The translations under genes and the position numbers were made by a program. The notes beneath the pieces are model-generated. The model did no database searches. It was not told the origin of the DNA and worked only from the letters and a program-made list of their open reading frames with translations. Positions 14,572-46,632 of a stretch of 64,000 bases of DNA are shown here, piece after piece. Every line of letters starts with the position of its first letter. Position 1 is the stretch's first letter. The DNA lies in assembly GCF_965363235.1 (NCBI RefSeq), contig NC_134845.1, positions 20,214,524 through 20,278,523 of the forward strand, in the 5' to 3' direction. This DNA is from Mytilus galloprovincialis (Eukaryota; Mollusca; Bivalvia; Mytilida; Mytilidae).

Positions 14572-15881
14572 ACTGGCTTCCAAACTGTAAACCTGGTAGA
14601 CGGTGGAACAACTGTAGCTATGAAAACTGGGTGTATACAAAGAGACATACAAGGCAGAGGTGTATTGAGCAAATTAGCAGAATTCATCATGAAACACAAT
14701 CTAAGCTTGACACATGTTGTATTTGCTACTGGCACAAATTTACCAACTATCTTGCAGAATACAAGAAATGGACAATATAAATTAGTTGCGAAAACGGTAT
14801 TTAAATATCATATATCAATACTAAATATAAGACGATGCGGTATGATTACACAGAGACCACATAAAAAAAGGTAAACAACTGTACGTCACCGTACAGCTTT
14901 CAACAATGAGCAAAACTAATACCACAAAATATAACACAAGGAGTAAAGGCCCCGAAATAAAGATTATGAAACAAATCAAAAGAGAAAAGATAACGGTCAG
15001 ATATATGTACAAAAAAAAAAACCAACGGAAAACAAATATGATATATACATGTAGATGTAGCTGTCAACGTAAATATGTTCCGCCTAACATAAGTTCCTGT
15101 GGAAACTTTGTTATAAACAATGTCAAAATATATGTTGGACCCTTTATTTAGTTAGGAACAAATACTGGAAATAATATTACAGAACATATCTTCCGTTTGG
15201 GACTTATCTTATGACGGAACTATGTATTCCATAACACAGCTACAGACGACTGGTCTACAAATGACCGTGCATCTTTTATTATTATTACATTTTTCATGTA
15301 ATTTTTCTTTTTATGTTTGTTTGCTTTACAAAGGCTTATAAAATGATCATGTTATTTTCTTTTAGGTTTTTCGTTTTACCAGGCTTAATCATATTCATTA
15401 AAAGAACCTTCACCTGATATAGACACACTGAAAAGAACGAAAGTTCTAAGTTAACATGACTTAATACAAATTATCAAAGAGCAAGACTTTTATTCCCAAA
15501 TGTTTAAAGACAATCGAATTATTATAGACGGTCATCCATACCGACTTATGGAATTTAACATTTCGATGATACTCATAAAAAAAAAGAAGAAAGGCAGTGG
15601 CATCGTATCTCGACGACAATAAGAAACGTATTGTAACCTTTGGGAATTATTTCAAGCTTAGCAATGGTGAAATATTTTGCAAGTTAGATATCTATGGAGA
15701 TGTAGGAAAGGCATTGGCTCACCATATTTGCATTCATATTCAAAATTTTATTAGTAATATTATAGATATTTTCACAATTGAAGTTCGGTGTTACGAATCA
15801 TCGCCAACCATAAATAAGGCAATGTCAGAAAATGGACTCATATTGGCACCGGCTGGTGAATTTACCCGAAAAAACTCATAA
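14572..15881 (+). pseudogene. Broken GNAT N-acetyltransferase, NAT16/histidine acetyltransferase-like
   Basis: Two blocks on the plus strand match the NAT16/histidine N-acetyltransferase-like group as I remember it. Block 1 (14572-14810) holds VNLVDGGTTVAMK, the acetyl-CoA loop DIQGRGV and KTVFKYHIS. Block 2 (about 15478-15881) holds RIIIDGHPYRLMEFNI and KLDIYGDVGKALAHHI and ends with a stop at 15879-15881. Block 1 is entered at a plausible acceptor (TTTCTTTTAAG). Block 2 needs at least one frame change: 15503-15575 and 15600-15881 are in different frames around an A-rich run at 15577-15594. About 650 bases between the blocks contain a dispersed repeat and could be a former intron. I found no N-terminal exon between 14.0 and 14.57 kb. 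The family transfers acetyl from acetyl-CoA to free amino acids such as histidine; this copy is probably dead. Confidence 0.6.
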
Positions 15882-28600: not shown

Positions 28601-31600
28601 CCTGGTAGATACTAGCTTTTTATCAACAACAGGCTTCTGTCCACGATTGGTATGAATCCAGGATAATTTGAGAAAGTTGTTATAATTTTTAAAACTTTAA
28701 CCCCAGAGTGGATGTAATGGTGAATGGCAGAAAGACTAATGTTTTTTTATAAGACAAAAAAGGATAAACTGGATGTTTTGTTATACAAAATTTACCTCTG
28801 GATACTATCTTACAATCATAAACAAGCTTCTGTTCAAATTTGGTAGAAATCAAGAATAGTTCAAGATAGTAATCAAACTTTTAAAAGCTTTAACCACAGA
28901 GTGAATATATGTTGATTCGCTGACGACGACGACAATGGAATGAAGAATCGCTATGTTTCGCTTTTCGCAGGCTCTTCAAAAATAAGAGACACCAATAGTT
29001 ATAAGTATACAACCTGCAAAATAAAACTTTATCAGATGCATACCGTTATTTTCACAAATTCTGTTCCAATATGGAGAACTACACTTGGACGGAATTAAAT
29101 GGCAAACGTTGAGTGTATCCATACAAAATAATCTCAGGCATAACATACTTGAATTGTATCTATCTAAAAATAGAAGTTAAATGTTTGTAGAAAATTTGTT
29201 CTGCACATTTTAAGAAAATCAGTATAATGTCTACAAAAACATAATACATGACATGATTTTTTTTCTATAAACCAGACTAATTCAGTAATTGTTTTCTTCG
29301 AGCTGTTTCATATTTTGTCATGTGAATGCCTTGTGTATTTGTTCCCGACCGTATGAGTATTTGTACCATACGCGTATGGTCATGACCATATGGGTATATA
29401 CTCATATGGTCCAACCATGCGCGTATGATCCGACCGTATGCGTATGGCCGGGGTAATAAACACCCTGTTACAGTTTACTTTTAATACTTCTTAACTCTTC
29501 ATATGGTATGACCATTCATTAAAAAGACGCTATCATATAGGTACTTTTATTGTTATATTATAATAAAACGATTAGCTAAATAAAAATTAGAAATTTCACA
29601 CAGTTACTTTGACTTACTTGTCAAAACTATAATAAACACATTTTATACCGATGGTCATTACCGATTTGTTATTACTAGTGAATGGCAATATGTCGACTTA
29701 AGAAAATAAATTCCCCATAAAATGTAATGAACTGTTAAACAAGAAGTCACTGGAAAGTAACATAATTTATTTAAATTATCTTTTGAGTATGGTGTATTGC
29801 AGTCATGCTACGATATTTGAGATCTAGATCACCGTAGACATATCGGAATGGCCCAAGACCTCGGTATCACTGTACGCAGCTACAAAATGGCTAGCTGTTC
29901 ACTTGCAAACAAAAGGTGTAAATGAAAGGGATCGTGTACAGCCAAGACTTGCAAATGCAAAAAAGCTATGGTACTGTGTGGAAGTAAATGTCACCCTAAG
30001 CCTACTTGCAAGAATGTAATTAGCGATGAAAACTAACTATTACATCAATATTTAATTTTTACGTAGTATTTGAATTATAAATGAAAATAATACATTGTCA
30101 TCGTATTCATCATTGTTATTTTAGATAAAGTATTTGTATAATGGAAACTTTTATAATGCAATTTAAAAAAAATACCTGTATAGTCCAAATACTCATATGG
30201 TCCGGCCCGTTAATAACCAAACGAGTATCACCCTTGTTTATGTTCCCTCTGACAATCATATGCTATTTTATTATTTTATTCATACATATGACCCCACAAA
30301 ACCAATATAGAATTATGTATGACGGATTACAAATATGTCGAGGTTTGATAACAACATAGAGATGTCAGTATATATTCAGGAAATTGCCGGGGTATATACC
30401 ACGTCTTCATCCCAAATTGAAACCTCATAAACGTCATCATAACACCAGTTACTATGTGACGTAGTCAAAAAGCTGTACAGAACACTAAGGAATGTCAGAG
30501 GCTCACAGAGGGAAAATAATAACGTACATCAATCAATAATACATTTTCAATACAAAATCACACAATGTACACTTTCAATACTTAAATTTAATGTGAAAAG
30601 TGTTATTATAAATTATTACAAACACGATAAAACTATTTTAACAGCAAATTACAAAAGGCTTCACGTATGCGAACATATCAGGTTGGGGTTTTCAATATAT
30701 ATGTTGTAAAAATCAAAACCGCACACTCATAAAAGTACAAAATATGAAATCTAAACACTTTATTGAAAACATTTTCCTCAAGGAAAAAAAATTGTCAAGA
30801 TAAAAAAGATGTATTTAAATGGATTACTCAAAATATAAAGTAACAATATTCATGATGTAATGAATATACATGCTGCATCATGAATGTTTAACAAAAAACC
30901 TGCACTGGAAAAACATTAAGACAGAGGTAATCCGTAATATATGGTAATTCAGGTCTCAGACAGGGTATATACTATGACATTCCCGGCTTAGGGCTTATAT
31001 CTCCTATGCCTTCGGCTCAGGGGATATACACTCTAAGACGGGAATGTCACAGTGTATACCCTGAATAACATATAATATATTATACCTGTCAATAATTCAA
31101 AACAATTTCAGGAAAAGTACGCAATTGAACAAAATACATCAAAAGTTTTTACTCTCTGGGTACGAACTGTACTTTAAGTATACTGCTGTAGTTTAAGATT
31201 AACAAAAACATGATAAAACTTTAGAATAAGAATTCGAATATATTAAGGATTCGTCAAAAATTGAAAACTAATTAATTAGACATACATTTTGCACAAAATA
31301 CGTTAAAACACTTTTTGACGATACATTATTCAACATTTATGAAATATTCTAATGCAATTATTTTGTATCAATGGTTCTGATTGGATGACAGTTAGCGTAA
31401 CATTCTCTATCTCCTTGTCTGTAAATAAGGAAGCCGACATTTTGAATTGCTGAATATATTGACATGTAATTTCTACAATAATAAGCAAAAAAGACTCACA
31501 TGTTGCACCTAAAAATCTTCATTTTATCAAATTTTATTACATTCTGAAACGGCACAAAAGCCAGAAAACGCCCCGTATTTATGTTTGACGCCGGAAGCAT

Positions 31601-34600
31601 ACCTATGATGTCACCTAGTGTAGGGACCAAAGAAGATCTTTTCGCGGAATTTTCTTTAATGAAGATTTTATACTGAAATAATGATTGAAATTTAATTATG
31701 ATCTTGTTTTGCCTTAGAATAGAGATAACTGTATTGTATTTGAAGCTTAAAGGACGTCCATCGGTAGTTTTACTGTCTCAAATACCCGTTTACCTGTCTC
31801 CGCTATGCGTCGCCAGGTAAACTAAATTTGCGACAGTAAAACTACCGATGGACGTCCTTAAAGCTTCAAATACAATACAGTTATCTCTTAATTTGTCTCT
31901 TGATACATAAAGCAAATTGTCCCAAAATCTTCAGATTACTTTAATTATTGATACAAATAGAATTGAATACTCGGAATACCTAATTCAATTCATGTTATCG
32001 TAATTTATTTTGATAGTGCATACCATGCTGAGTCACAGTTCTAGGTGACGATGTATACACATTAAAAATACTTGAGTCATATGTACTGCCGCAATCATTC
32101 GGTACAGTGTGGAACGTCTTGAAGTGTTGTTGGTACGTTTCACATCTCCCATCGCAAAAATGCGGAGACAAGCCACTGTCTTCAGGAATGTGACGCAAGC
32201 AAACACATTCTTTGCTCTACAAAATAAAATTAAAACAACATTTGAAAAAAGGGAATCAATGTTTGTTGTCGTTTTGCATTCCAATTGAACGCTTTTTTAA
32301 AGCTACTATAGAGGGATTACTAAATAACTCCTTTAACGGCATGTATTGTGTGTCAGACATTTATTCATTTGACCATGAGAATACCTCACCAAGATAAAAC
32401 ATAGCTGTATCCTGAAGTATTTACCTTTATAGAAAACGCAAAGGTTGTTAAAGGCTGACAAAGCTCCTGGCACAATCCAAGGGATGACCGAGGTAAAGTC
32501 ATCGAGGTACTAGGATCTGTATGATACCTTAAATAACTCCAATTATAACAACCTAGGGATATAAAACATAATGCTAGTAAATGACACAAACTTTAACAAA
32601 TCGTTCATATGTGTTTTGAGTATTTCTGTTGCCTTAAATTAATGTATGGTGATTTTATTTCACCGAAGGTATGTGCACAAAAATAGGATATACTTAACAT
32701 TTGTTTTGATTCTATTTTTGAATTTTTGAAATGCTAAGGCTTTTCTACCTCAGGAATAGATTACCTTAGCTGTATTTGCCAAAACTTTTAGAAATTTTGG
32801 TGCTTAATGCTCTTCAACTACGTACTTTATTTGGGCTTTTCAACTTTCTTGGATTCGAGTATCACTGATGAGTCTTTCGTAGACGAATCTCTCGTCTGGC
32901 GTTAATACAAAATTTGATCCTGGTATCTAGGATGACTTTATTTATGTTTTATTGTGAATTCCGAGTTACAAAACTAGTATAATAATTTGACCAATAATAT
33001 TGACATTGATTATGTCTTTTCTGTTTTTTCCGTGACATATCATTTGTTGGAAAAAGGTTTTATTTTTACCTATTTCTAATTGATGTTGAACGACCTTGAC
33101 TTCCAATGAGGGTTTCGCACGGTCGATATCGTATTCATTGCCATATATTGACATCTCATATTGAATTTGTTATTGGAATTTTATCGTTACGTTCAAGAAG
33201 AAATGAAATTGATAAATGAACTTTATTTATGTCTGCATATGAACACTATATGCATTTCATGTTTGTTTCTTTCAATATAACTGTTTAATTTTTTAAACGA
33301 TACATTTCGATAAATATGTCATATTGTTTGACCACAAAACAAAAACGAAAAACCTTCAGTCTAGTTTTGATAACTATTTTACTGATAACCTTTAGGAGAG
33401 TGCATTTAAAAACACAATTATTATTGTTAGTTTTTTACCATTAACCTAAAATATCGTAAAAACAGCTGACCCAATTTTAAACTGTATTTCATTTATTCTT
33501 CCTTTTTGTGAGATTATTATTGAAAGGCACATTGAACTAATGTTTATCGGATCATAATTTATATAAACAAGCAACCAAAATATTTTCAATTAAAAAAAGT
33601 GCACGTAATTGTCGAATAGTATAATAATGAATGATAAAAGTGTGTCTTCTCTTGTTGAATGAACACTTGCAAGATACTAGTACTTCTTTGTTATGTAAAA
33701 TTCTCTTGTTTACTGAAAGTTACCTGCCGAATAACACCTATCATTGGTGAAGGCTTTGTATGGGTACGAAGAGTTTTTCTTTTGGAGCAGGATCTATAAA
33801 TCCTTCTCGAGCACCCGAGACCAATCCCGGTTTTTGATTGTGCTCGAGATGCACAGTTTTGGGGGTTTTGATACTGTGTTTTGTAAACTGTGGTTTGTCT
33901 TTGATCTTTTGACCGTTTTTTACCACTGTTAAGGTACGACAAAACAGTCCCTTATGTATGTTTCGTCTTTCTTTGGCAAATTATTGCAATACTGTGTGCC
34001 ATATAATATTTTATTAAATTTGATTTATCTACCTATGATATGTATCCAATCGGATAGTCTATTGTATTCGCCTCTCCAATAGTCGCTGGTCATGTTGTCA
34101 ATTTTACGTTGTATCATGGTGCTGTTTTTACTCTTGCAGAAGTGATTTGCTTCTATCCACGTCATTTTATATTCAGAAGTTATGTTGACTTTCTTTTATT
34201 ATCACAAATAAACAAGCAAATGGTTAATAGACATTTCGACCGAACAACTTTATTTCTGCATTTCATTATTTTAAATTCTTGAGATTGGTTTTTACCTTCA
34301 AACCATTTATAGTAACGTGTTTTTTTTCCTGACATTTTATTTTGGTCGTCAGGTTTAAAGTTGAAATAAATATCACACAAAACTTAATTCAAAAGTTTTC
34401 TTGCTATTAACGAAAATTAATTTGAAGTTAACTTATAAAAGTCACCTGAGCAACGCAGATATTTAACTCAATGTTTTACGGGGTTTTGTGTCTGAATAAA
34501 GTTTTGATCTTAAAATTAAGACATACATTTAAACATTTAACCGGTAAAATTTAGTTCATTTCAATTTTAGTTTTATAAATATTCAATAAGAAATCATTTA

Positions 34601-37600
34601 AAATTATAATATTTGTGGCTCAATTTGCTTCCATTTCTCCCTCTTTTCTACGACGTAATATAACACAGACAATATATATCAGAATATTGTGTTCCATGAA
34701 GAGAAATGCAGTTTTAAACCATAACTACGTATGCAATTCAAATGTCAATAGCAGAACCGGACAATCATTTAAATCCAATATGAACAAGATAATCGCTTTA
34801 ATATTAAAACTGTGTTGTGTTGAATTGTAAAAATTGATAATCTCAACAGTAGTTATCAGTGTCACTTTTGTCACTCTTTTATCTTTCATTGATCTTGTTT
34901 AATATTTTTAATATAATTTCAAATTTTAAAACTTTATTATTTAGTTCAGTAAAATGAATGAAATTAAATTAATTCGTACATTACATTGATAATTGTAAAC
35001 TGCAAAAGATCTGATTTTTATTTTATTTTTTATCTTTTTTCAAATGGACTTTACAACGATTTTGCATCACAAGAATCGTTTTTGCATGTTGGCCGTCTTA
35101 CCTGAATAGCCATTAATTTAGGCTTATCCCCTCTACATACAGCTTGTAATTTTCTACCTTGACTATCACAATCATCCACGAAATTTCCCAGTAAACCATC
35201 ATACATTTTGCACTGTATAACCAATCGTGTGTCAGTAGGTTTTCCTGTGTAAAATAAAATGACAATTCCGTCTTCTCGCAAACTGTATGATTTCAAAGAT
35301 TTTCATGACGCGTGGTCTTCATCAAAAGACAAAATTTAAATGTTATCTAAGCAGGTATGAGTATTTGTTAGGCTAAATGACCTTTTGGGACAAGTTACAA
35401 GCCTGTTCTATAGTGCTATATACTGGCTGTTTCTGTCATTGACCTGTGATAGATTTGAGGTTTTCTGTTTTTGATCCGAGACTCGGAGAGTCGTTGCCTA
35501 TGACAGCAGATCCAAAATGTATTTCATGCTCGAAACTATTCTCCATTGTCTTCTACCGGTTTCACTAGTACTGTTTCACAGATATTAATGGATATGGTTA
35601 CTAGTGTTGTCTCTTTTTGAGACCAATAGACCTATAAAAGTTGCATCAAAAATCTATCTTCCTCTCTCGTTTTGTCTTCCTTGCCTGCCAGTTTTGTTTA
35701 TCTCAATGATTTAAAATGTGACGTTTTCAAAACAATGCCTTTCTATTAAAAGATGTCCTTTGATTGGGCATATTCTTTCTTTTGTATAAAATGACCGATG
35801 GTTATTCAGTCCGAAGTTGCATGGTGTTTCTTTTTCACCAAAATATTGCAATTTGCTAGTGCCACACGTTAGAACAGAAATACAATTTAGCGTTTGCATT
35901 TGGATGATATAAAAATGTTGAATTTATTTTGTCTGACTGTACTAACGAATTGGGTTTTAATGTTGGCGTGTTTGCAGCATTTACAATTGCCTCTTTTGTA
36001 TGATTTATAACCTCCTATTGTCGATGTATCCTGTTTAGATACCTTGATGTAACTTGAAAATCTTTGAGTTGGTCTGCGGTAAGCCATAACGGAAAGGTGG
36101 TGGAAAAATCTCTTTTAAAGAAGGGTAATTTTCAGTAAGATATGGGTCGTCATAGAAATAATAATTTTGACAAGAACGTATTAAAAGACACTAAGTAGTG
36201 ATTTGAGAGTACACGCAGTTACTGACAGCTACATTTAGTTCAAAGTGAATGACAAGAAATAAAATAACATGTTTCTAATAACAACAGAACGACAGGAAAT
36301 GAAGTGTCGTATTCCTTACTTGGTACATAAACTGCTGACGACACGGTTAATTGAATATGGTTTTATAGCTAGTTGAATCTCCCTCTTGTGAAACAGTTGG
36401 AAACAGTTTTTTTTTGTCTATTTTGACGACAAAATTGTGTTAGCAACCCAAAACGACATAATTGGTTAAGCCAACTTCACTTATACGGATTTTGTTTAAA
36501 GTGTTGAAGAACGCCAACTTGTGATTGGTCAATCGAAAACATCCATGAATACATCGCTCGTTTCCGTAAATTACTCGGATAAACTTGCAACAACTCGCAG
36601 GCATCGTATATCTATATACAAATGTTAATGCTAAAAATCTTATTGTGATAATAAGTAATTTTTACCTGTATCTGTTGTTAAATATATTTTTCTTGCTATA
36701 CCAAGCCAATGCCAAAAGGTCGTCTTTTCTTTCACGTTAGATCCATTGATCTTGTTACCTGCGTCTGCTTCACTAGTAATGTTTCCAAACAAGTAAGATC
36801 CATTTCTCTTGCATGCTTTAAGGGCATTTTCCCAGTTTGTATAGTCATTCATTTTAAACAGTTCGTCTTTATTATCTGTGACAGACATAAGTCATTGGTG
36901 ATCATGTGTTGGCCAAAAACAAATATATATTTATAACAAAAAACATTTGTTTATTTTTCATGGCAGAAGCTAAAGCATTGTCGAGTGATACAAACAAAGA
37001 AACTTACCAGGTGCATACCATTTGGGTAAAAACATGACGTAAATTTCATCAAAATCTAACATGAATATAAAAAATAACAGGATTAATTAGAACCATTATT
37101 TGCCCCTGTAAATGCAAAATAGTTCAGTTTCTCAATCTTTTCAAAATCATTTTAGTTATGTCAATAATTGAACAATAATAAATCATTTTGAATGTCGAAC
37201 GTAAACTTCACGTTTGATATCATTGGGACGCCATCAACATTGTGATACACATTATAAAGATAAAAGGTTAAAAGGCTTTTTATTGATGCTACTTAAACCA
37301 TCTCCTTTAAACATCTCAAACATATTCAGATATTTTGGGAGTGTAAATAAACTCATCATAAATACCAGGATTGAAATTTATTATTTTCGCCAGATGCACG
37401 CTTCGTCTGATGTGACTCTTCTTAATTTCAAAATTATTAAGTTTGAAATCTATTATTGTTTTTCTTCCATTTAAGATTAATTTCTACGTGTACAGGATTA
37501 AATTCAGATATATATTGCAGACGTTGAGGTAAAAATGAAATTCAGAATGGAAAACAGTCCAAAGGCAATGATTGGTCTTTAAAACAACAAGAAAATACCG

Positions 37601-40600
37601 CACCCGGATTCGGGATTTAGCTGAATCTGAATATAATAAAATTAACGGTACTACTTTTCTTGCATCAGATGCGCATTCCGACAATACATGTCTCTTCAGT
37701 GATGCTCGTGGCCAAAATATTTAAAATCCAAAGCTTATATAAAAGATGAAGAGCGATAATCCAAAAGGTCCAAAAAGTATAGCCAAATCCGTGAAAGGAA
37801 TCAGAGCTTTGCATGAGGGAGATACATTCCTTAATTTATAATAATTTCTATCATTTTGTAACAGTAAATTTTAATAACACAAAAAATCCGTATTTTCATG
37901 CCAGTACCGAAGTACTGGCTACTGGGGTGGTGATACCCTCGGGGACTAATAGTCCACCAGCAGAGGCATCGACCCAGTGGTAGTAATAAAATTAACGGTA
38001 CTAATTTTCTTGCACCAGAAGCGCATTCCGACAATACATGTCTCTTCAGTGATGCTCGTGGCCAAAATATTTGAAATCCAAAGCTTATATAAAAGATGAA
38101 GAGCGATAATCCAAAAGGTCCAAAAAGTATAGCCAAATCCGTGAAAGGAATCAGAGCTTTGCATGAGGGAGATACATTCCTTAATTTATATATATATGAA
38201 TGTATTGGTAGTGTAAGTGACAATATTAAAGATTTTGAACTGATGCAATATTGGACAAAATACATACCACTTCTTTGGCATAGTCCTCTACTTGCTGATG
38301 CACAGGAATCAGGTCGAAAATAGTATGTATCAAGGAAGTCGGTACTATAGAGGGACAGACATAATTTCTTTACATCATATTTATCTGAAATAAACAAAGT
38401 CTGAAGTAAATGCTTGACACACGTACGGTTATTATTAGGTTTATTGATAAATAGGTATTGTTTTATACATTCTATGTATCTTTTGGTATGACAGATGAAA
38501 TTTGAACCATGTTTACCCTCCTGTCGGTATATTCCGCCCTTGAAATACAACAGTAAATACCATAGCTGGTAACGTAAGTATGTGTTTGCTTTTAAACAAC
38601 AGAGTCACAGTTCAACATGTTCAACGTTTTCATCGCTATATTTTCGTAAGATCTTTAACATTGTTTTAGTCGATCGTGCATCTCTGACAAAATCATTTGT
38701 TTATAATTTATTGTCACTAGTAACTATATAACGAATATCACTAAATTGATTCTCAGCTGACTTCCACAAATTGTTTGAGTTAAGCGTAATACAAACGGAT
38801 TCCAGTTTAGAATATCCGTTCATACGGTCTTCAACAACAACAATAAAAAGTCTTTACAATATGCTTAGTCCCCAAATCCATTATATTATTGTTTTTGGTA
38901 AATACCAAGCAGAAGGATTGAGTTGAAATACTTTGTGAGAAATAATGGGCTTGAAAAGACATGTAAGGTTTCATTTTTTTTTAAATATCACGTTTCATCA
39001 AGTTATGGATAAGCAAATGTGTTCGGTTGTTTTGGGATCTCAATAGGATCAAACAGTTTCAGTGTGTATATTTTCTAAATGCTTTATATTCATCTCTTTT
39101 CTTTTAACAATGATGTGATTTATAATCAAAATAAATAAAGTGATTCTTTTCATTTTTAATTGTCCATTATAGCTTAAGTTTAATCATACTTGCCACTAAG
39201 ACTAATTTTCCCTTTTTTGTGGAGATATTTCTTTGCACCATATCTCACTGTGTTTATATTTCACAAGTCTATTCTGTTGTCACGACCGACACTCGGCTAA
39301 CCGAGAGATTGGTCGGTTAATCTATATTGAGTATGCGGCTATATCGGCGGTTGGTCTGTTAATCGGGTTGTCTAAAGTCTGTTAATCAGGTGTTATCGAG
39401 AAAATCATTGAAAGTTTAGCATGTTTCATTGTAAAACGTTTTAAATATATCTTTATTATAAATATCATTCATGTCTAACAAAACAATTCAATATACTGAA
39501 TCCAGTGGTGTAATTATTATTTTTCTAGCTTCGATGTACGATCTAAAATGAAAAGGCGGGTTACTCATCAATAAATTTATACACATTTTACACACACTAA
39601 ATGAACACAAAATGACACGTTGGTTGATTTTACTTGCATGCAATATTTTGAACATCCAAAACAGACAGGCATTATGTTTGTTAACCATATTGATATCTTT
39701 GTGTGAAAAATCTACCTGAAAATCTGTATTTTGGTGACATAAATCAATCTTTTTTTAAAACCTGGTCTGTTAATGGGTCGGATGAATAAAACCCGGTCTG
39801 TTAATTGGTTAAGAGTTATGAATGGCAATAAAAATATAATGTTATTGCTATATGGGGTGTTATCGGATCAAATTGGTAGGCTCAAGACGAGCAGCTAAAA
39901 TATACGGAAACAACACATGAGCAATGAAACATAAAATATATGATAGCAACACATGAACAATTAACAATTTAGACAATTGAAATTGAAAATTGATAAAAAT
40001 GGTTTCAAAAAGTGTTATTTTAAAGTAATATTAATTTCTTTCAAGAATGGTAGCATATATCGTATGGATTCTGTTTACATAATGAATGACACCAATTTCT
40101 CATCTTCATTGGTAACCAGTATATAAATCAGAGATAAACGTCGTAATGTAACTAAACATCAGTAAGTAAAATATATTGGGATGCTAAAATATAAAGAATA
40201 GAGCATTTCCCGTGCCTCAGGGAGATATGAAGATTCGTTCAATGACACGTGGGATAGTCTCAACAAATCAGATATTGATTAAACTATCAATGTGTATAAA
40301 CAGTGGAATAATATACAATTATAGCCTTTGTTTGTATGAGGGCAATACAAGAATATATTGACCTGAAAGAAGTATATTAACTGAGGACGAAGTCCTAGGT
40401 CGAAATACTTTTTTGGGTCGATATATCCTTATCAACCTCATACATAGGCTATACTTGTTATATTATTAAATTTCCAACCATATTTGTATCAAAATCGTCA
40501 TTTGATTTTGTTTGAATTTTATAGATATCATATTGTCTCCTATACATTAACGACATATAAATAAACCGTGCAATATGCTTTTTGCTGTGCAATATGCATT

Positions 40601-43600
40601 TTGCTATCCGCCGTTTTTGATCACTTTCGATAATATAGTTCAACATGTGACTATCCCTGAACGAATCAAATAAGTTAAAATATACGAATTAATAATACTG
40701 AGTAAGATAAATAAAATGTAGAGAAAAGTGACTTTACAATTTAAAGAATACAGAAATAAACACCACCCTCAATCCTGACCTTCATGGTATACACGAGAAT
40801 CTGGATGGAGACGCAGAATATAGAATAGTAGATAAGGACAGTCGAGATTGATGCATTGCTAAAAAAGAGAGAAAAAATAATAATTGTTTAAGAATACAGA
40901 CATGAAACACCCCTGGGTGTTGAAACAGTAACGGATTGCGATTTACTCATATTGGTCATGAATGCTAAAAGTTTAAATGCGGACAACTGCAGTTCTCCTC
41001 TGCACTTATGTAAAAAGGAACTAAACGGAATAAAATAAATTAAATCTTTAGTAAAAAAAATGTAGCTGCATTTGCTCCTTTCCATTTACTTCTTTAGAAT
41101 GATTTGAAAACAACATATAATTAAGAAATAGAAGAAAAGAACCAATTGGATGATGCTGACGAATTAGGGGTTAACGTCCAGTGACAAATAACATGTGCAT
41201 ATGAGAACGACAACACGTTATATGTACCCCTCTGTTGTATTAGAAACACACTTTCAGTCGGATTTGATAACGTGCTACTTTGAACAGATTCAAAAATTAA
41301 GGCTGATTGAAAACGTTGATATTAAATTCATGCATATTCCAGCGGTCAATCCATATCATGCTATATTGAAGTGACACACCCTTCAATAAAATGCAAAGAA
41401 AGTCAAAATAAAAATGCTCTTACTAGAACGATACTGTTGCACCTTATTATTTTTTTTTACTCAAGAACATCTCATTCTTTACTTTTTCAATGGCAAAATA
41501 TAAATGTAGCAAAACTATTGCAGTGGCTAAATAACTCTTAACTAACACAATTTCAATTGTCCAACCCATTAATAGACTTTATTCCCATAATTTCCACTAA
41601 AACTTGGTATTATTCACGTTATAATACAATTATGAAATATTTACTAATGTCATTTATGTTTTTAGAACCAAAGTACTATTTTGTGTCCTTTAAATGATAT
41701 CTAAAATTGTTTGTTTCGCCTTTTATTAAAAAATTGCTATGCGTATAAGCATTAATTATACATACTTGCGCGACGCCTTTTAGTGTTACTGAAAACTGCG
41801 CAGACTATGAAATGTGTTTACAGGTGGAAAATATTCTATGATAGATATCATTTTGTCAGACACTTTTCTTTTTTTGATTTGGTTCTTATAATATGCCAAA
41901 AATTTGTATATTTAATAGAGTTTTACATAAAATTGTGCGTTTTACTCTTAACAGACGTATAACCAACCCGATTAACAGACCATTTGCACATATAGCCGCA
42001 TACTCAATATAGATTAACCGACCAATCTCTCGGTTAGCCGAGTGTCGGCCGTGGTTGTGACGTTTTTTATTTTAACTAACGTTATCTATGTATTACTGGT
42101 AAATTATCAAGACAGGGATTTCGGTACCACACATTACTTAAAATCGTTTCTAAATTCTCCCATACATACAAAAAGATTTGGTTTTGAAGTTTGGTTGTAT
42201 CTGTAGAAAACTTATTTTAAAGGAGAAAGCACATCCTCATTATTTCGGAAATGATGTTTACAGTGTCCGGAAATTTAGAAACGATCCTGGTAAACTTATG
42301 ACCCATTAGATAAACTTATTCTAATAGGTTACCAATTCAACACTGTAATTAGATCATTAAATATTGTTTATATTCATGGTATTGATATTGATTTTGTTAT
42401 CAGTAAATTGAAAGCAAACTAAATAGTATTGTTTAGTTTAGTTCATTAAAGAAAATGCAGAAGACTGCGAAACTGGAATATATTATACACAATATTAATT
42501 ACAACATAGTTCATAATATAAACATTATACATTGTTGGATTATACATCCTCAGAAATAAGTCTTTGTTTATAACAGTTTTAAATTAGACAAGCATCTTTT
42601 CTACCTTAATTAAAAAATGACAGCTTAGACAGCACATTACTATAACAATATTGAAGCATGTCTAGTACTTTTTTTTACATTTGGATATTTTAAATAATAT
42701 GGAGGTATGAACTTCCCCCTGAAATCCTTAACTTCATAATTGATTCATTCACATATATAGATGTATACATCCCCCAAACCAGCTTTACAAATTGGACAAA
42801 TTCTCTCATTTCGCGGTACATTTCTCCATCTTCCTGTTTCGATGGGAAACTTTGTATTACATACCCTTAATTTACATATATTTACTCTTTATCCCCGCCT
42901 TAAATTTAACAGATATTGTTATATACATATTCACATTCATGGATCTTCAATCTGTCGATAACTGTATCTTTGCATTGCGTAAGGTCTTTTTTTTCTCTGA
43001 CTGTTTATGACGTCTTTACATTAAATCCATTGGATAATGGATGTGTACTGATTGATAATTCAGTCTTAGATACATGATTTTTTTATAAGTTGTTAGTGGC
43101 TTTGAACTAGCTGTCAGTTACTGCAAATACTCACATATCTGTACGTAATTCAGTTGTTGTCGTTTGTTTATATTTGTTACATATTTGTTTTCGTTAACTT
43201 TTTATACATAGATTAAACGTTAGTTTTCTAGTTTGAATTGTTTTACATTGTCATTTCGGGGCCTTTTATTGCTGAGTATGCGGTATGTACTTTGCTTATT
43301 ATCGAAGGCCGTATGGTGACCTATAGTTGGTTATTTCTGCGTCATTTGGTCTCGTGTGGAGAGTTTTCTCATTGGCAATCATACCACATCTTCTTTTTTA
43401 TATTGTAGAAAATCCTTTATACCTATACCGTTCATACTTACCACTCATTGTCATCGTGTTCGGCGATGTTGTATAAACATTGAATATGTTTTGATCACTG
43501 CTACTTCCACAATCATTAGGGCACGACTCATGACATTTACCATCACACGTCTGTGATGATAGGCCATTTCTTTCCGGGATTTTACCCAAACACAAACACT

Positions 43601-46600
43601 TGTTAGTCTACAAAAATAGAGGGCATGTTATTTGGTTTTTGATGAAGAGTTATTTGGCAATCATACCACATCTTCTTGTGATACAGATACAACCTGTACC
43701 TGTGTGCATAGACCTTTATCTAAATGACGTGGTTTTCAGTTTTCAGTCCCTCATATATTTTAATGAACAGTTTGGTTAAGATAAAATTTATACATGATGT
43801 TGATAATGTATAATATGTTATACTTACACTTAAGGAGGTAGACCTAGATACAGGGAAATAACTCTTAAAATCATCAGTTCGTTTGTGTCAACCATTTTAA
43901 TAAATACATTATAAGCTTCTATTTTACTTCTAATTTGTTCCAGGCACATGCTTAAAATACATTGACGAAACCTGACTATTACAAAACCATAACTGTTTTA
44001 ATGAGTTATCTTTCTAAACAAAGGTTTGCCCATAAAGAGGATCAATCAAACATAATAAAGTTTATCTTGAAGTTCATTGCATATACATGATATAAGTAAT
44101 GAAAACAATTACCTTAATTGAAAATGCAAAAACGTTGACCGGCAAACAAAGTTCCTGACATATTCCTAAAGAAGGTGTCGATAAAGAGAGCGTACGCTGT
44201 ACGTCTGTATTCTCGCTCAAGTAATTCCAACTGTAGCACCCTTTTACACAAAAAAGGAAAAATATTTCCTATTATGTTACTATTAAACGAACTGATTTCA
44301 GTTAATTGTCATTGCAGAAATAATGCGGCATGAAAGTCATAGAATTTTTGAATTTTGTTCATGGCGCGGGCCATTATATTTGAAACATTATCCCGAGCGT
44401 TAGTGATATATATAAATGATTTCAAAATTAAGGCTATAAATAAGAAGAGTTTGTATGAGAACCAATGGGATAATTCTCCATCCAAAAATAGGCTTTTGAA
44501 TAGGAATAACAGTTCTGCCTTTTCTTCTTTTTTCAATTTCAATTTGAACACAGCAAAATCCACATAGTTTGCATTACATGTGGATCTACGAGGGAGATAA
44601 ATAGTAACAGCCATTTATATATTCATCTTTAGTAAATACTTAGTATCGAAATATCTAGAAATTTATCAATCAATTGTTTACAGAGCGAAAGAAGCATGTC
44701 ATCAAAGAATTGCAATAAGTATACTTTTTAACGATACTATTTATTGAATTAGGAACATTGTTTTGAAAACAAACGATATATTACTTGTGAAAGTGTGTTT
44801 AGAATGAAACAGATCGTAGGTTTTTTTGTTCTGAAGTATTTTAAAAGTTTTCATACCAGCCTTGATACATTAACATATGATATGGGTTGTTGTGGATATT
44901 ACAGTAGGGTATCGTGGTGTACATCCTTTGTTAAGCCTTTTGTGCCTATCAATACTTTTATATAATAAAGTCATTATTTTGTACATGAATCGGGCCGTTA
45001 GTTTTCTTGTTTCAATCGTTCAATGTTTGTCATTTGGTGCCTTTCAAAGCTGACTATGCGGTATGGGTTTTACTCATTGTAGAAGTTCATGTGAGGACCA
45101 AGAGTTGGTTATGTCTGTGCCATTTTGTATATTTATTGTGGAGAGATGTAACATTGGCATACTATATCTCTAATTATATTAAAATAAAAGTGATTTTTCT
45201 TATTATGATTGCTGAAATTCTTTGTTTGTTTTCCTCGGAGTTCGAAATTTTTTGTTATTTTACTTTTCACTTATACGAAAATATATCAAAATATCGGTAT
45301 CATTATTACATGTACCTATAATATGCATCCAGGATGACAGCCGTTTGTATTCTCCTGTCCAGTACTCCCCACGGGCATGTTGTGAATGTCCTTGTACTAA
45401 GGAACTGTTACTATCGCTACAGTACAATAGTGCCTCATTCCATGTGAGCGTAGAGTTTGATGTCCATTCACTTTCACCTTTTGGTAAACAATAATAAAAA
45501 TGCTACCATTATTTATCATTTTGTACTTAAAGACAAGACGTTTCTTACGGCGTTTATATATCTTAACAAAAACGCAATATGTTCACACATCACGCTACAA
45601 GTGGCTGATAGTAGTTGTACAACAATAAATGAATATTCTTTCGGCGCATCCGGTCTCGTCTCTTTTAGAGTTCATACGATCATCCTCTTTCTTGTTTGTA
45701 GCCTTTGTCTGCACCTCTTTCATCAATTTAGCCGATTCAAACATCATTAAACTACTGTTGTCTAATTGATTTTACCAATAAAGAATTTCGATTTGGCTAA
45801 ATAACAGATACCGATACTTTTCATTTACGCAGTGTTATACTTTTGAAGGTATTGTTTTAGAAGAACCTTATTATCTTATTCATTCGGAATTTTGTTTGTG
45901 TGTCTATTGTCTAGTTTTTCTCGTTTAATCATTGCATTTTAGAAATTTCTCTATTACTGTGGATCTATTACCAATGTGCATGGATAAGGAAAACTTTCAA
46001 GTTCATTGATATTTAATTTCCTTATTTTGCCAAATAGTTATCAAAGGTACCAGGGTTATAATTTTATACCGCAGACGCGCGTTTCGCCTACATAAGACTC
46101 ACCAGTGACGCTCAGATCAAAATAGTTAAAAGCTAAACAAGTACAAAGTTTAAGAGCATTTAAGACCCCAAATTCACAAAAGTTGTGCCAAATACGGCTA
46201 ATGTAATTTATTCCTTGGATAAGAAAATCCTTAGTTTTTTTTTTTATTAATTCAGAGTTTTGTAAACAGGGAATTTATAAAATGACCATATAATTGATAT
46301 TCATGTCAACACTGAAGTGCTCAAATCTGTATATACGTCTATAGGTTATTTGTCGTTCGTCAAACTTTAAATAGCGTGGATCACCTTTACCCATGAAATA
46401 TCCAACGAATCATAATTAATTGTCAGTATATGTTTTATCGATGTTAAATAAAGTATGATAAAATGTGCCTGACATAGTGATGGTCGTGTCACTAATATTG
46501 ATGATAAATTGTATTCTGAAATGTCACATTAAGGCGGAGGGATTGTTGTTATAACATAAATTTAATTTTTGAATTTTACTCACCTTCTTTGATAATCATA

Positions 46601-46632
46601 AGTATGATGATACTTATTGCAAACAACTTCAT
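16436..46632 (-). CDS. Gene A: membrane receptor with two CTLD(WSC)-CTLD modules, 17 exons
   Basis: Predicted type I membrane protein of 816 residues. Exons in transcript order: 46584-46632, 45316-45477, 44113-44240, 43442-43607, 38268-38384, 37008-37055, 36666-36875, 35102-35244, 34033-34192, 32425-32552, 32024-32216, 29044-29163, 28197-28394, 24269-24420, 23085-23265, 19167-19263, 16436-16634. These sum to 2,451 bases, a multiple of three, and every junction agrees in phase. Order: signal peptide; module 1 (lectin-like half, WSC, lectin-like second half, second lectin-like domain); module 2 (same); Ser/Thr-rich stalk; one helix; tail. WSC and C-type lectin-like folds bind carbohydrate in other proteins, so glycan recognition at the cell surface is inferred. 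The weakest join is 35102 to 34192. The alternative is two genes: a secreted 357-residue protein ending at 35051 and a 489-residue membrane protein with its own signal exon near 34652-34697. The five-exon partial paralogue B at 56-63 kb supports the exon borders. Confidence 0.6.
16800..16900 (+). repeat. Dispersed repeat fragment, GAGCAGGATCTGC family (weak)
   Basis: Weak similarity (GATTCTATGTTGTTTTTTGT) to the repeat at 24560-24860. It sits directly before a tRNA-derived SINE, and together with the 640-bp repeat forms a nest of insertions in the gene A intron. Confidence 0.35.
16901..17058 (+). repeat. tRNA-Leu/Ser-like SINE
   Basis: A class II tRNA-like head: box A TGGCCGAGTGGTC at 16911-16923, and a degenerate box B GATTTCGAACC at 16973-16983. 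The body (GACTAGGATCGTCAGTTTTC) continues to about 17058, where the 640-bp repeat starts. The spacing of the boxes fits a tRNA with a long variable arm. It is a SINE relic and not a tRNA gene, as the 3' side does not pair with the 5' end. Confidence 0.6.
17050..17695 (+). repeat. 640-bp dispersed repeat, copy 3
   Basis: The best-preserved plus-strand copy. It begins near CAAACGTCAAAATCATTCAA and contains TCTGACGTCAGACACTC and AAAATGCCTGTACCAAGTCA. It is collinear with the minus-strand copy at 12690-13335. Confidence 0.7.
17700..17975. repeat. Repeat with inverted ATCATTTGCGCCAAA ends
   Basis: ATCATTTGCGCCAAA near 17726 recurs in inverse near 17955-17970, and TGCGCCAATTA pairs with AATTGGCGCA. 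The block also holds further TTGCGCCAA motifs, and a related TTTTGGCGCAAACG lies near 18780. Probably a small MITE. Confidence 0.45.
18059..18319. mobile_element. 261-bp MITE with 37-bp TIRs
   Basis: Left TIR 18059-18095 and right TIR 18283-18319 are inverse copies with one mismatch. They begin CCTATAGGTACAGTGCATAG and end in ATCCAT. No coding capacity. The right flank runs straight into a GTACGGTGACC-family fragment (CCCCGAAATGACAATG), which suggests insertion into or next to that repeat. Confidence 0.75.
19167..19263 (-). CDS. Gene A exon 16: transmembrane segment
   Basis: Acceptor AATTTTGTAG and donor AG/GTAATTA. The exon codes acidic ENDNDN, then a hydrophobic run (ITLSLLGFAIVLVTIAVFCV) of about 23 residues ending at an Arg whose codon is split with exon 17. 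Gene B has the same exon at 57799-57889 with the same phases and the same closing V-C/Y-x-R. This places the N-terminal side outside and the tail inside. Confidence 0.85.
19330..20550. other. Intron of gene A, nothing recognised
   Basis: AT-rich sequence between the membrane exon and the minisatellite. I see no exon, RNA gene or clear repeat. A fragment at 19040-19110, just before this stretch, resembles a dispersed repeat at 58490-58615 (shared AGCGGTATAC). Confidence 0.4.
20550..21386. repeat. 24-bp AT-rich minisatellite, about 35 units
   Basis: Tandem unit ATTTGACTATTTAATATTAT followed by AATG (24 bp) over about 830 bases. Variants include a 23-bp form with GAATATTAATATT and units with an extra GATTTT insert giving higher-order pairs near 20.63-20.76 kb. 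It lies in the intron between gene A exons 15 and 16. Copy number is likely to vary between alleles and assemblies. Confidence 0.95.
21400..23080. other. Intron of gene A, nothing recognised
   Basis: AT-rich sequence between the minisatellite and exon 15. The short frames have no recognisable domain and no acceptor/donor pair in phase with the gene A exons. Confidence 0.4.
23085..23265 (-). CDS. Gene A exon 15: extracellular stalk
   Basis: Enters in phase 0 after TTCGTTAACAG and leaves after one base of a codon at AAAG/GTATGA. It codes 60 residues rich in Ser, Thr, Asn, Pro and Lys, with no Cys. Examples are MTSTPQQKSSRRVTSNN and PVPQKK. This looks like a flexible, probably O-glycosylated stalk between the last lectin-like domain and the membrane. 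Gene B lacks it: there the lectin exon joins the membrane exon directly. Confidence 0.75.
23310..23625 (-). repeat. GTACGGTGACC-family repeat, long copy
   Basis: Long minus-orientation copy. It runs from GAAGATGTGGTATGATTGCC through GGTCACCGTACGGCC and GGCCCCGATAAGACAATG to ACAGGCTCCTGACTTGGGAC. It sits 45 bases upstream of exon 15, inside the intron. Confidence 0.8.
24269..24420 (-). CDS. Gene A exon 14: second half of lectin-like domain, module 2
   Basis: Acceptor TTTTTCTATAG; donor AAG/GTAATT, phase 0. The exon carries six Cys in the pattern C-x2-C-x(9)-C-x(5)-C with a final AFAVCED. The last part (DC then FAVCE) is like the C-terminal end of C-type lectin-like domains. Compared with module 1 it has an additional Cys pair (KLC and RC). 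Confidence 0.75.
24560..24860 (+). repeat. Dispersed repeat, GAGCAGGATCTGC family
   Basis: Contains GGAGCAGGATCTGCTTATTC and TAGCCATGGCGTTGTCAGTT, repeated in weaker form near 33740-33930 and 52780-53000. The open frames across it have no domain. It is a transposon-derived block of unknown class. Confidence 0.55.
25064..26167 (+). repeat. 1.1-kb tandem duplication, left copy
   Basis: Starts ATTAAAAACCAATTGTTCAG and ends with CAAGAACAAAATTTGGCGG plus an A-run. The next 1.1 kb is the same sequence. Near the start is a stem, CAATTGTTC-AGA-GAACAATTG. The copy holds several ACTTCCGG sites and a cluster of four TGACCT half-sites at 25725-25749. Confidence 0.9.
26168..27275 (+). repeat. 1.1-kb tandem duplication, right copy
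   Basis: Head-to-tail with 25064-26167, about 1,104 bases offset and high identity throughout, with scattered substitutions and a few short indels. The TGACCT cluster is at 26831-26855. A hairpin (AAGTCTTTCCAC/GTGGAAAGACTT) follows at about 27291-27321 and echoes the AAGTCTTTCCAC near the start of each copy. Confidence 0.9.
27397..27830 (+). repeat. Dimeric dispersed repeat, GTCCGAAGCGC-head type
   Basis: AAATTGAAAACAACACGTT at 27397 is repeated directly at 27755, a unit of about 358 bp. The core CTACTGAGCTG with CCACCAGCAGCGGTATTGAC lies just before the second repeat. The core is the one found at 2.7 and 37.6 kb, but the head (AGCGCTTTCTGGATTTACG) differs. Confidence 0.75.
28197..28394 (-). 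CDS. Gene A exon 13: first half of second lectin-like domain, module 2
   Basis: Acceptor TTCTCCCAACAG; donor AGAG/GTAACA; phase 1 on both sides. It contains the helix motif TWEASVEICKNNGSYLYGN and later FWLGAARQVYP. W-x2-(S/A)-x3-C, G-S-Y-L and F-W-x-G are typical of the N-terminal half of C-type lectin-like domains. There is a glycosylation site at NGS. Parallel exons are at 36666-36875 and 61143-61355. Confidence 0.85.
29044..29163 (-). CDS. Gene A exon 12: second half of the WSC-split lectin-like domain, module 2
   Basis: Acceptor TTCTATTTTTAG; donor AACG/GTATGC; phase 1 on both sides. It codes MLCLRLFCMDT, then IPSKCSSPYW and RICEN. The spacing C...IP-x2-C...(I/L/F)C(E/Q) matches 38268-38384 and 62720-62839. 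It resembles the closing C-x-C part of a C-type lectin-like domain. Confidence 0.75.
29347..30230 (+). mobile_element. Non-autonomous TIR DNA transposon, copy 2
   Basis: Same ends as 4705-5516. The left end is GACCGTATGAGTATTTG with extra stacked CATATGG motifs; the right end is CCAAATACTCATATGGTCC, then CCGTTAATAACCAAACGAG. The interior landmark GTGAATGGCAATATGTCGAC is shared. It lies in the gene A intron and has no transposase. Confidence 0.7.
30934..31085. repeat. Palindromic repeat with 50-bp arms
   Basis: Arms near 30961-31010 and 31020-31072 are inverse copies around GACATTCCCGGCTTAG and CTAAGACGGGAATGTC. The loop includes CCTTCGGCTC. Same family as 16230-16425; a fragment may lie near 30375 (TTGCCGGGGTATATACC). 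Confidence 0.75.
31721..31888. repeat. 168-bp hairpin MITE, 57-bp arms
   Basis: 31721-31777 and 31832-31888 are inverse copies with one mismatch, starting AGAGATAACTGTATTGTATT. The 54-base loop has an inner stem TTTACCTG/CAGGTAAA. The near-perfect arms suggest a recent insertion or ongoing arm conversion. Confidence 0.9.
32024..32216 (-). CDS. Gene A exon 11: WSC domain second half, module 2
   Basis: Acceptor TTTATTTTGTAG; donor CATG/GTATGC. It codes CVCLRHIPE, FCDGRCE, PNDCGS and FNVYTSSP. CxC, CD-x2-C, CG and NVY are the signature of the second half of WSC carbohydrate-binding domains. Module 2 has 9 more residues than module 1, between the CDGRC and NDCG motifs. It enters in phase 0 and leaves in phase 1. 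Confidence 0.85.
32425..32552 (-). CDS. Gene A exon 10: WSC domain first half, module 2
   Basis: Acceptor TATCCCTAG; donor AAAG/GTAAAT. It codes GCYNWSYL, then LGLCQELCQPL and FAFSIK. The C-x(n)-C-x3-C layout and FAFS are WSC-like. It has the same length (128 bases) and phases as 44113-44240. Confidence 0.85.
32740..32935 (-). repeat. Dimeric-repeat family fragment
   Basis: In minus orientation this shows the middle and head of the family at 2.7 kb, with ACGAGAGATTCGTCTACG and AGACTCATCAGTGATACTC. No second direct repeat is visible. Confidence 0.5.
34033..34192 (-). CDS. Gene A exon 9: first half of the WSC-split lectin-like domain, module 2
   Basis: Codes MTWIEANHFCKSKNSTMIQ and DYWRGEYNRLSDWIHIIG. 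These parallel TWNEALLYC and EYWTGEYKRLSSWMHIIG of exon 2. Two acceptors are possible. AATAAAAG ending at 34193 gives phase 0, which fits the preceding exon 35102-35244. AAAGAAAG ending at 34189 gives phase 1, which fits a separate signal exon. The first AG is normally preferred, which favours the single-gene model. Confidence 0.75.
34652..34697 (-). CDS. Possible alternative first exon (signal peptide), gene A module 2
   Basis: ATG at 34697 opens MEHNILIYIVCVILR and reaches a weak donor (CGTC/GTAGAA) in phase 1, the phase used by the signal exon at 46584-46632. If used with the 34188 acceptor, it would make module 2 a separate 489-residue gene. The hydrophobic run is short and the donor is poor. 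The unspliced continuation (RRRKEGEMEAN, then stop) looks like the juxtamembrane stretch of gene A and B tails, so a relic tail exon is the other reading. Confidence 0.25.
35017..35053 (-). promoter_or_regulatory. In-frame stop and tandem poly(A) signals after exon 8
   Basis: If the donor at 35101 is not used, the frame runs on as VRRPTCKNDSCDAKSL and stops at 35051-35053. Two overlapping minus-strand AATAAA signals follow at 35022-35027 and 35017-35022. This would end a secreted form of module 1. An unspliced read-through of an AT-rich intron could give this by chance. Confidence 0.35.
35102..35244 (-). CDS. Gene A exon 8: second half of second lectin-like domain, module 1
   Basis: Acceptor TATTTTACACAG; strong donor CAG/GTAAGA in phase 0. 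It codes LVIQCKMYDGL, DDCDSQG and LQAVCRGD. It matches exon 14 and gene B 58683-58829, but lacks the extra Cys pair found in both. Confidence 0.8.
35711..36087 (-). mobile_element. GIY-YIG-type retroelement remnant (fossil)
   Basis: Two overlapping minus-strand frames show pieces like the GIY-YIG endonuclease of Penelope-like elements. One is a Cys-rich lead (NCKCCKHANI). The other has LTCGTSKLQYFGEKETP and NNHRS. It is broken and looks old. It lies in the intron between exons 7 and 8. Confidence 0.5.
36666..36875 (-). CDS. Gene A exon 7: first half of second lectin-like domain, module 1
   Basis: Acceptor TGTCTGTCACAG; donor ACAG/GTAAAA; phase 1 on both sides. It contains NWENALKACKRNGSYLFGN and TFWHWLGIARKIYL. 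It aligns well with 28197-28394 and 61143-61355 (conserved C, SYL-GN and the W-x-G-x-A-R block). Confidence 0.85.
37008..37055 (-). CDS. Gene A exon 6: 48-base mini exon (optional)
   Basis: Codes FDEIYVMFLPKWYAP with good splice sites (acceptor TATTCATGTTAG, donor CCTG/GTAAGT) and phase 1 on both sides, so it can be included or skipped without changing the frame. I found no counterpart in module 2 or gene B. It could be an alternative cassette or a chance pair of splice sites. Confidence 0.45.
37635..38190 (+). repeat. Dimeric dispersed repeat, CAGATGCGCATTCCG-head type
   Basis: A 206-bp sequence at 37635-37840 (starting TAATAAAATTAACGGTACTA) is repeated directly at 37984-38190 with only a few differences. 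The core CCACCAGCAGAGGCATCGAC lies between. The two direct repeats are nearly identical, so this looks like a recent insertion. The long minus-strand frame here is mostly repeat sequence overlapping exon 5. Confidence 0.85.
38268..38384 (-). CDS. Gene A exon 5: second half of the WSC-split lectin-like domain, module 1
   Basis: Acceptor TGTTTATTTCAG; donor AGTG/GTATGT; phase 1 on both sides. It codes KLCLSLYSTD, FRPDSCAS and RGLCQRS. It matches exon 12 and gene B 62720-62839 in Cys spacing. A young dimeric repeat stands 78 bases away. Confidence 0.8.
39279..42061. mobile_element. 2.8-kb TIR DNA transposon without transposase
   Basis: Left TIR 39279-39344 (GTCACGACCGACACTCGGCT onward) and right TIR 41990-42061 are inverse copies with few differences over about 66 bases. 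Subterminal repeats GGTCTGTTAAT(C/G/T)GG occur at about 39353, 39768 and 39798, and inverted near 41967. No frame inside codes a transposase. A hairpin repeat at 40320-40453 is nested inside. It lies in the gene A intron between exons 4 and 5. Confidence 0.85.
40320..40453. repeat. Hairpin repeat nested in the 2.8-kb element
   Basis: Inverted arms TATAGCC-TTTG-TTGTATGAGG and CCTCATACATAGGCTATA enclose a loop with GAGGACGAAGTCCTAGGTCG. It resembles the other foldback MITEs but has more diverged arms. Confidence 0.6.
42100..43150. other. Intron of gene A, nothing recognised
   Basis: AT-rich stretch between the 2.8-kb transposon and the repeat at 43.15 kb. No exon in phase with gene A was found. 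Confidence 0.4.
43150..43405 (+). repeat. GTACGGTGACC-family repeat, plus orientation
   Basis: Runs from GTTGTTGTCGTTTGTTTATA through GGCCGTATGGTGACCTATAG to TTGGCAATCATACCACATCT. It is the reverse of the copy at 23.3 kb and ends 37 bases from exon 4. Confidence 0.8.
43442..43607 (-). CDS. Gene A exon 4: WSC domain second half, module 1
   Basis: Acceptor TATTTTTGTAG; donor AGTG/GTAAGT. It codes CLCLGKIPERNG, TCDGKCHE, CPNDCGSS and FNVYTTSP, the second-half signature of WSC domains. It enters in phase 0 and leaves in phase 1. Confidence 0.85.
44113..44240 (-). CDS. Gene A exon 3: WSC domain first half, module 1
   Basis: Acceptor TTGTGTAAAAG; donor TAAG/GTAATT. It codes GCYSWNYL, LGICQELCLPV and FAFSIK, typical of WSC first halves. 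With exon 4 it makes a 294-base unit with phase 1 on both outer sides, so it can be moved or lost without breaking the frame. Confidence 0.85.
45000..45140 (+). repeat. GTACGGTGACC-family repeat, decayed
   Basis: Recognisable from GGGCCGTTAGTTTTCTTG, GACTATGCGGTATGGGTTTT and the following block, with many differences from the 43.2 kb copy. Confidence 0.55.
45316..45477 (-). CDS. Gene A exon 2: first half of the WSC-split lectin-like domain, module 1
   Basis: Acceptor TTGTTTACCAAAAG; donor ATAG/GTACAT; phase 1 on both sides. It codes LTWNEALLYCSDSNSSL and EYWTGEYKRLSSWMHIIG. W-x2-A-x3-C and Y-W-T-G are like the N-terminal half of a C-type lectin-like domain. There are glycosylation sites at NST and NSS. 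The expected closing cysteines come only after the WSC exons, in exon 5. Confidence 0.8.
46035..46321 (+). repeat. Dimeric-repeat family, truncated copy
   Basis: Starts TAGTTATCAAAGGTACCAGG, continues through GACGCGCGTTTCGCCTAC and breaks off near CACTGAAGTGCTC before the core and second direct repeat. It lies between exons 1 and 2. Confidence 0.65.
46584..46632 (-). CDS. Gene A exon 1: start codon and signal peptide
   Basis: ATG at 46630-46632 opens MKLFAISIIILMIIKE, a Lys followed by a hydrophobic run, typical of a secretory signal. It leaves at GAAG/GTGAGT, a strong donor, in phase 1 to join exon 2. I chose this start because no other hydrophobic in-phase exon lies upstream in the window. 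The promoter is not recognisable; upstream is AT-rich. Confidence 0.75.

Follow-up and report, generated by a model that had tools for sequence, protein, structure and literature searches.

How does a WSC domain come to be encoded between the two halves of a C-type-lectin-like domain (CTLD)? This question is raised by a 64,000-nucleotide stretch of Mytilus galloprovincialis DNA (the window; C8:20214524-20278523, on NC_134845.1), for which a first-pass annotation had proposed such a nested layout. One genome (1.38 Gb, 331 contigs) was searched, and exon models were read from genomic DNA by splice sites and reading frames. All genes concerned lie on the minus strand, and the guanine-cytosine content of the window is 27-33% in 4-kb steps. 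Six nested modules were found in one tandem cluster (C8:20.238-20.359 Mb), and the layout recurs in all six. Modules A1 and A2 lie inside the window, B lies across its edge, and C, E and D lie beyond it; the modules outside the window were read from adjoining 10-kb stretches. We consider it probable that a WSC exon pair was shuffled into an intron of a CTLD gene, that the product would be a discontinuous CTLD around a WSC domain, and that this arrangement was then duplicated in tandem.

The exons of module A1 display the layout. A signal-peptide-like exon 1 (MKLFAISIIILMIIKE; 46584-46632; splice sites and frame), ending in phase 1, precedes exon 2 (45316-45477, phase 1-1; splice sites and profile), the first half of the nested CTLD. 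The translation of exon 2 reads TWNEALLYC...YWTGEYKRLSSWMHIIG and contains a single cysteine, the closing cysteines being absent as originally noticed; its splice sites are weak (acceptor 0.1, donor 1.1 on our own score scale). The WSC part follows in exon 3 (44113-44240, 128 nt, phase 1-0) and exon 4 (43442-43607, 166 nt, phase 0-1), both identified by splice sites and Pfam, which together form a unit of 294 nt with phases 1-0-1. Exon 5 (38268-38384, phase 1-1, three cysteines; splice sites, with weak profile support) is the presumed second half of the nested CTLD. The span first assigned to the nested domain, 43442-45477, covers exons 2 to 4 and leaves out exon 5, which lies 5 kb further on. 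An uninterrupted CTLD comes next, with its first half in exon 6 (36666-36875, phase 1-1; splice sites and Pfam) and its second half in the exon numbered 8 in the first-pass annotation (35102-35244, phase 1-0; splice sites).

The same split is repeated at 34192-29044, as had been reported, in module A2. Its first half (34033-34192, ending in phase 1) starts at 34192 if in phase 0 and at 34188 if in phase 1, no acceptor having passed the score. It is followed, on splice sites, by the two WSC parts (32425-32552, 128 nt, phase 1-0; 32024-32216, 193 nt, phase 0-1) and by the presumed second half (29044-29163, phase 1-1), and then by the two halves of an uninterrupted CTLD (28197-28394, splice sites and Pfam; 24269-24420, splice sites). 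In gene B the presumed second half, already noted at 62.7 kb, was located by splice sites and the genome search at 62720-62839, and the first half and the WSC pair lie just beyond the window edge. A genome search with the nested module gave 23 matches at E<=1, of which 20 lie in the one cluster and three weak ones elsewhere. Exon 2 of A1 and the first exon of A2 are 46% identical (E 4e-15), and so are exon 4 of A1 and its A2 counterpart (E 1e-19), both beyond chance; the mutual identity of the nested modules is 40-86%. The WSC pairs measure 294 nt in A1, 321 in A2, 318 in B and in C, 315 in E and 327 in D. In all six modules the phases are 1 at the end of exon 2, 1-0 for exon 3, 0-1 for exon 4 and 1 at the start of exon 5, and the uninterrupted CTLD next to each nested module is divided by one phase-1 intron. 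This agreement, here and below, holds for the splice sites as chosen, some alternative sites scoring higher.

Exon 2 was placed inside the lectin-like fold by two profile comparisons. TW, A, C and W-x-G of the first-half signature TWxxAxxxC ... WIGL are invariant in the six nested domains. A profile of the six nested CTLDs, with the WSC part cut out, gave 22 matches in PDB at E<=10, the best (E 0.0081) over exon 2, and 22/22 are CTLD proteins, some of them classed so by the identity of the named protein. Against a CTLD reference profile built from 13 CTLDs of this genome and eight domain pieces from PDB (a fourteenth genome CTLD, which contains a stop, was excluded), the nested CTLDs scored P 1.7e-5; the 34 aligned columns take in the WIGL-like WTG. 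The cluster's plain CTLDs scored P 1.3e-4 and a WSC set, serving as negative control, P 0.64. At E<=10 the Pfam model Lectin_C matched three of the six uninterrupted CTLDs; the lowest E is 0.0037, and the two scores given, 15.3 and 18.4, lie under the 22.6-bit cut-off. EPN/QPD and WND motifs are absent from the six nested domains; the six uninterrupted CTLDs also have no EPN/QPD, and their sole W[NDS]D match is a WSD near the start of C_C. The nested domains resemble CTLDs in TWxEAxxxC, the WIGL-like W-T/R-G, the presumed four-cysteine frame and the phase-1 boundary downstream of WIGL. They differ from CTLDs in having no long loop, no EPN/QPD and no WND, in being shortened before WTG, and in holding an entire WSC between C1 and C2.

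Exons 3 and 4 encode a WSC domain, as the first-pass annotation had stated, on the evidence of Pfam and of eight cysteines. At E<=10 the Pfam model matched four of the six modules, the best match having E 3.9e-5 and 24.2 bits, and the two scores shown (20.3 and 24.2) do not reach its curated cut-off of 27.8 bits. The eight conserved cysteines are present within exons 3 and 4 alone in all six modules, A1 and C having a ninth, and the close cysteine pairs agree with the 3-1-3 pattern of yeast Wsc1, according to spacing numbers in the part of PMC9024836 consulted. In these respects the modules are like the WSC family PF01822 (yeast Wsc1, Kremen). They are unlike it in scoring below the cut-off where scores are shown, in carrying CGS in place of the CGG motif in 6/6, and in having CTLD halves on both sides. 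The two-exon 1-0-1 unit is shared with the one WSC unit elsewhere in this genome that was fully read. A survey of the genome yielded 129 WSC rows (150 of 370 candidates scored), none of which falls in the cluster. A WSC match with stops lies about 62 kb past the cluster on the opposite strand (C8:20421351-20421542, plus strand).

The intron evidence makes insertion of the WSC pair into a CTLD intron by exon shuffling, as originally suggested, well supported. The pair is a symmetrical phase 1-1 unit inside a phase-1 intron in 6/6 modules, and its host intron matches the dividing intron of the plain neighbouring CTLD in all six, both having the same phase and both lying after a WIGL-like WLG...G segment. 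We also inspected six CTLD exons elsewhere in the genome; they were selected because their Lectin_C match ends at profile position 61-68, and it is thus their phase alone that tests the idea. In three of them an accepted phase-1 donor stands directly after WxWxxG, another donor also passing in each, and the remaining three have at the same point an in-frame phase-1 GT which fails the consensus filter. Many CTLD matches listed in the Lectin_C survey (150 of 1034 candidates scored) start instead at profile position 35-44. The downstream exon of ordinary CTLDs was sought within 2.5 kb; of three stretches searched, two gave three unconvincing frames in total and the last gave nothing. In fish type II antifreeze CTLD genes an intron lies downstream of the WIGL motif, its phase not being given in the text covered (Zelensky and Gready, PMC514892). 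Phases 1-0-1 were likewise read by eye in a WSC unit at C5:70.9 Mb, whose inner intron lies one codon from that of the cluster, and in 27 of the 129 WSC rows the match extends from profile position 1 to 45-47, which is how the cluster units are split as well. Some WSC domains of the genome are encoded by single exons (open frames in loci L001 and L003), so that WSC domains come here in at least two exon arrangements, one of them the two-exon unit. The case for shuffling rests on the phases in all six modules, the intron at the same place in the neighbouring CTLD, the donors in three of the six CTLD exons elsewhere and the 1-0-1 phases of a WSC unit elsewhere.

In detail, the target of the WSC exon pair would have been a phase-1 intron located immediately after beta 2 (the WIGL region) in a CTLD gene; by our alignment this point would be the mouth of the long loop. 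The product would be one discontinuous CTLD, encoded by exons 2 and 5, with a complete WSC domain standing where its long loop would otherwise be, and exon 5 would complete the fold through C1-C4 and C2-C3 bridges. Wsc1 forms an antiparallel sheet with strand order beta1-beta5-beta3-beta4-beta2, as described in the sections of PMC9024836 covered; from this printed topology the ends of the WSC chain should lie side by side, which suits insertion into a loop. A plain CTLD would then have been joined to the nested module, and tandem duplication of module and genes would have given four receptor-like genes with six modules. Also in favour of this reading, dN/dS (the ratio of non-synonymous to synonymous substitution rates) is 0.31-0.35 overall for the pairs A1-E, B-E and A2-D, and 0.13-0.17 in exon 2 of the same three pairs, which is strong constraint.

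Whether exon 5 provides the closing strands is the point on which the earlier view of a WSC within one CTLD only partly stands: exon 2 holds as the opening half by profile, and the role of exon 5 is weakly supported, by its order, phase and cysteines. The closing cysteines C2, C3 and C4 are placed as in CTLDs in exon 5 of five of the six modules, with a weak profile match, and the alignment of exon 5 with CTLD ends sets C3 on C3 and C4 on C4. The spacing from C3 to C4 is 7-8 in the five exons measured (D has no counterpart), compared with 7 in 14/14 ordinary CTLDs of the genome. From the exon boundary to C2 there are eight residues in 5/5 measured, which leaves little long loop besides the WSC. 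The claim that exon 5 has the cysteine spacing of exon 8 was not borne out, with 18 and 7 residues between cysteines in exon 5 of A1 and 13 and 10 in exon 8.

Several results weigh against a completed CTLD. Lectin_C matched none of the six nested CTLDs with the WSC cut out. The profile of exon 5 alone (five of the six modules, D being excluded from this search and from the comparison with CTLD ends) found no match in PDB, and against CTLD ends it scored P 0.022 over 14 columns, a weak match that 3 of 60 column shuffles also reach; the result for exon 8 of the plain CTLD is not stronger, 7 of 60 shuffles reaching it. The plain-CTLD profile itself gave six matches in PDB at E<=10, none of them a CTLD. 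Nested and uninterrupted CTLDs are 20-24% identical, and their profile-profile comparison was not significant (probability 0.8%). The span from C1 to C2 is 42 residues in A1 with the WSC cut out, 59 in the uninterrupted neighbour and at least 67 in 14 ordinary CTLDs, so that the alpha-2 region, before WTG, also looks shortened; on these sequence features the nested CTLD may be a strongly reduced one. At three places the chosen site is outscored by one in a different phase: a phase-2 acceptor four bases on in exon 5 of A2 (5.1 against 4.8), and phase-2 donors in exon 6 of B and of C (1.7 against 1.0 for the chosen phase 1). The recent pair B-C has an overall dN/dS of 0.87, on few changes. The proportion of non-synonymous differences (pN) is highest in exon 5 among the six exons in all four pairs tested, dN/dS of exon 5 is 1.44 in A2-D, and exon 5 of module D has neither the last cysteine nor a donor.

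The most serious alternative is that the parts are strung like beads, exon 2 being a relic half CTLD that caps the WSC N-terminally and exon 5 an independent small cysteine-rich domain or linker, with no CTLD completed. The weak profile support for exon 5, its pN, the highest of the six exons in all four pairs, and extra cysteines in A2, B and D all speak for it. Nevertheless, the lone cysteine of exon 2 is present in 6/6 modules and needs a partner, exon 2 is itself strongly constrained, and exon 5 follows in phase and order like the second CTLD half next door in every module. We regard independent beads as unlikely, with the nested CTLD the preferred explanation. Far less credible is that exons 2 to 5 form one enlarged WSC/PAN-type domain, in which the CTLD look of exon 2 would be a short chance motif: the failure of Lectin_C on all six nested domains would fit, but the PDB matches are CTLD proteins throughout, the CTLD profile match extends over 34 columns including WTG, and the eight WSC cysteines are complete in exons 3 and 4 alone. 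It is equally improbable that the WSC pair is a skippable cassette whose genes yield both plain and WSC-bearing CTLDs: exons 2 and 5 would join in frame (phase 1-1) without exons 3 and 4, but the resulting plain CTLD would be unusually short.

The six modules are distributed over two two-module genes (A1 with A2, E with D) and two single-module genes with a transmembrane exon (B and C). The first-pass annotation had proposed a single gene with two modules, and this is supported: in both two-module genes the last exon of the first module ends in phase 0 and the second module opens with a phase-0 start. The phase-0 acceptor at this opening was scored only in D; in A2, where none passed the score, it was read by eye. 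An alternative model, in which a distinct second gene would begin near 34.69 kb with a signal-peptide-like exon, was rejected, because no such exon was seen in the matching gap between E and D and the phases there fit one two-module gene. Starts resembling exon 1 were found, weakly, upstream of modules E (E-value 0.11) and C (0.38), and none was found before module B. A candidate transmembrane exon of gene A (19167-19263) is tentative because the phases do not meet, the exon starting in phase 1 and the preceding one ending in phase 0; no transmembrane exon was found in the E-D gene. The uninterrupted CTLD of gene B lies at 61143-61355 (first half, with the chosen phase-1 donor mentioned above) and 58683-58829 (second half, splice sites), followed by a transmembrane exon with the start of a tail (57709-57889, far end uncertain), which has a counterpart in gene C. 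In the tail after the transmembrane segment (57889-57709 and the gene C counterpart), tyrosines are common to the recent pair B and C (RYYVYPSSNSLIYVND), and they might form a signalling motif. In module D each CTLD is without one frame cysteine (C8:20341153-20341040 and 20335440-20335243), exon 5 lacking the last and the plain CTLD the first, and D may be degenerating because both its CTLDs are so affected.

Other features of the window were also recorded. In the intron after exon 5 of A1, two near-identical stretches lie about 350 bases apart (37668-38185). The Pfam model Hisat_C, for the C-terminal part of histidine N-acetyltransferase, matches an open frame on the plus strand at 15579-15878 with E 1.9e-6 and 28.2 bits, above its cut-off of 27. 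A cysteine-rich open frame of 168 codons (WAGGSYFNSPGG...) lies on the plus strand at 7029-7532, and a Pfam search of 7080-7532 gave no match at E<=0.01.

In the family of polycystin-1 and the sea urchin REJ proteins, WSC is paired with CTLD, as separate domains in series. Unlike that family, the cluster genes show no PKD and no multi-pass parts. The presence of WSC in polycystin-type proteins is given in the part of PMC1934368 covered. Among bivalves, WSC is named among the domains combined with CTLDs in unique architectures (PMC10140915, in the portion consulted), the same domain pairing as in the cluster, named there as an architecture; words starting with nested or intron do not occur in the main text of that source as far as covered. 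No description of a WSC nested in a CTLD was found in the literature searched, which includes parts of PMC4581086 and PMC7618208 and takes in the broadest topics in small part. The combination of WSC and CTLD in bivalves is therefore already in print, and within the literature covered the nested layout is apparently new. As to function, both a fungal lectin that binds beta-glucan and Kremen, which joins Dickkopf-LRP complexes, contain WSC (PMC9024836, sections covered); because of these cases, a ligand of microbial-glycan or protein kind is plausible for the modules by analogy. The reduced CTLD might clamp and present the WSC as the ligand-binding face of a secreted or cell-surface recognition protein, beside the plain CTLD. 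Its role as a scaffold is suggested because the nested CTLD has neither EPN/QPD nor WND, the calcium-sugar motifs.

Proteins gain domains by insertion less often than by fusion, and how an insertion came about can seldom be traced. In this case a single genome contains the unit, its target intron, a sister domain without the insert, and ordinary CTLDs and WSC domains. Nested domains are easily missed by profile surveys, as the absence of this cluster from the surveyed WSC rows illustrates. Whether a complete recognition domain of foreign origin has taken the place of a CTLD's long loop, with the lectin fold reduced to a clamp displaying the WSC, seems to us evenly poised between right and wrong. 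The route of a 1-0-1 cassette into an intron at the loop mouth could in principle be repeated with other cassettes. If the fold is confirmed, a CTLD can swap its binding loop for another recognition domain by way of a phase-1 intron placed where the variable loop opens, and such loop swapping would be a route of receptor diversification in animals without antibodies.

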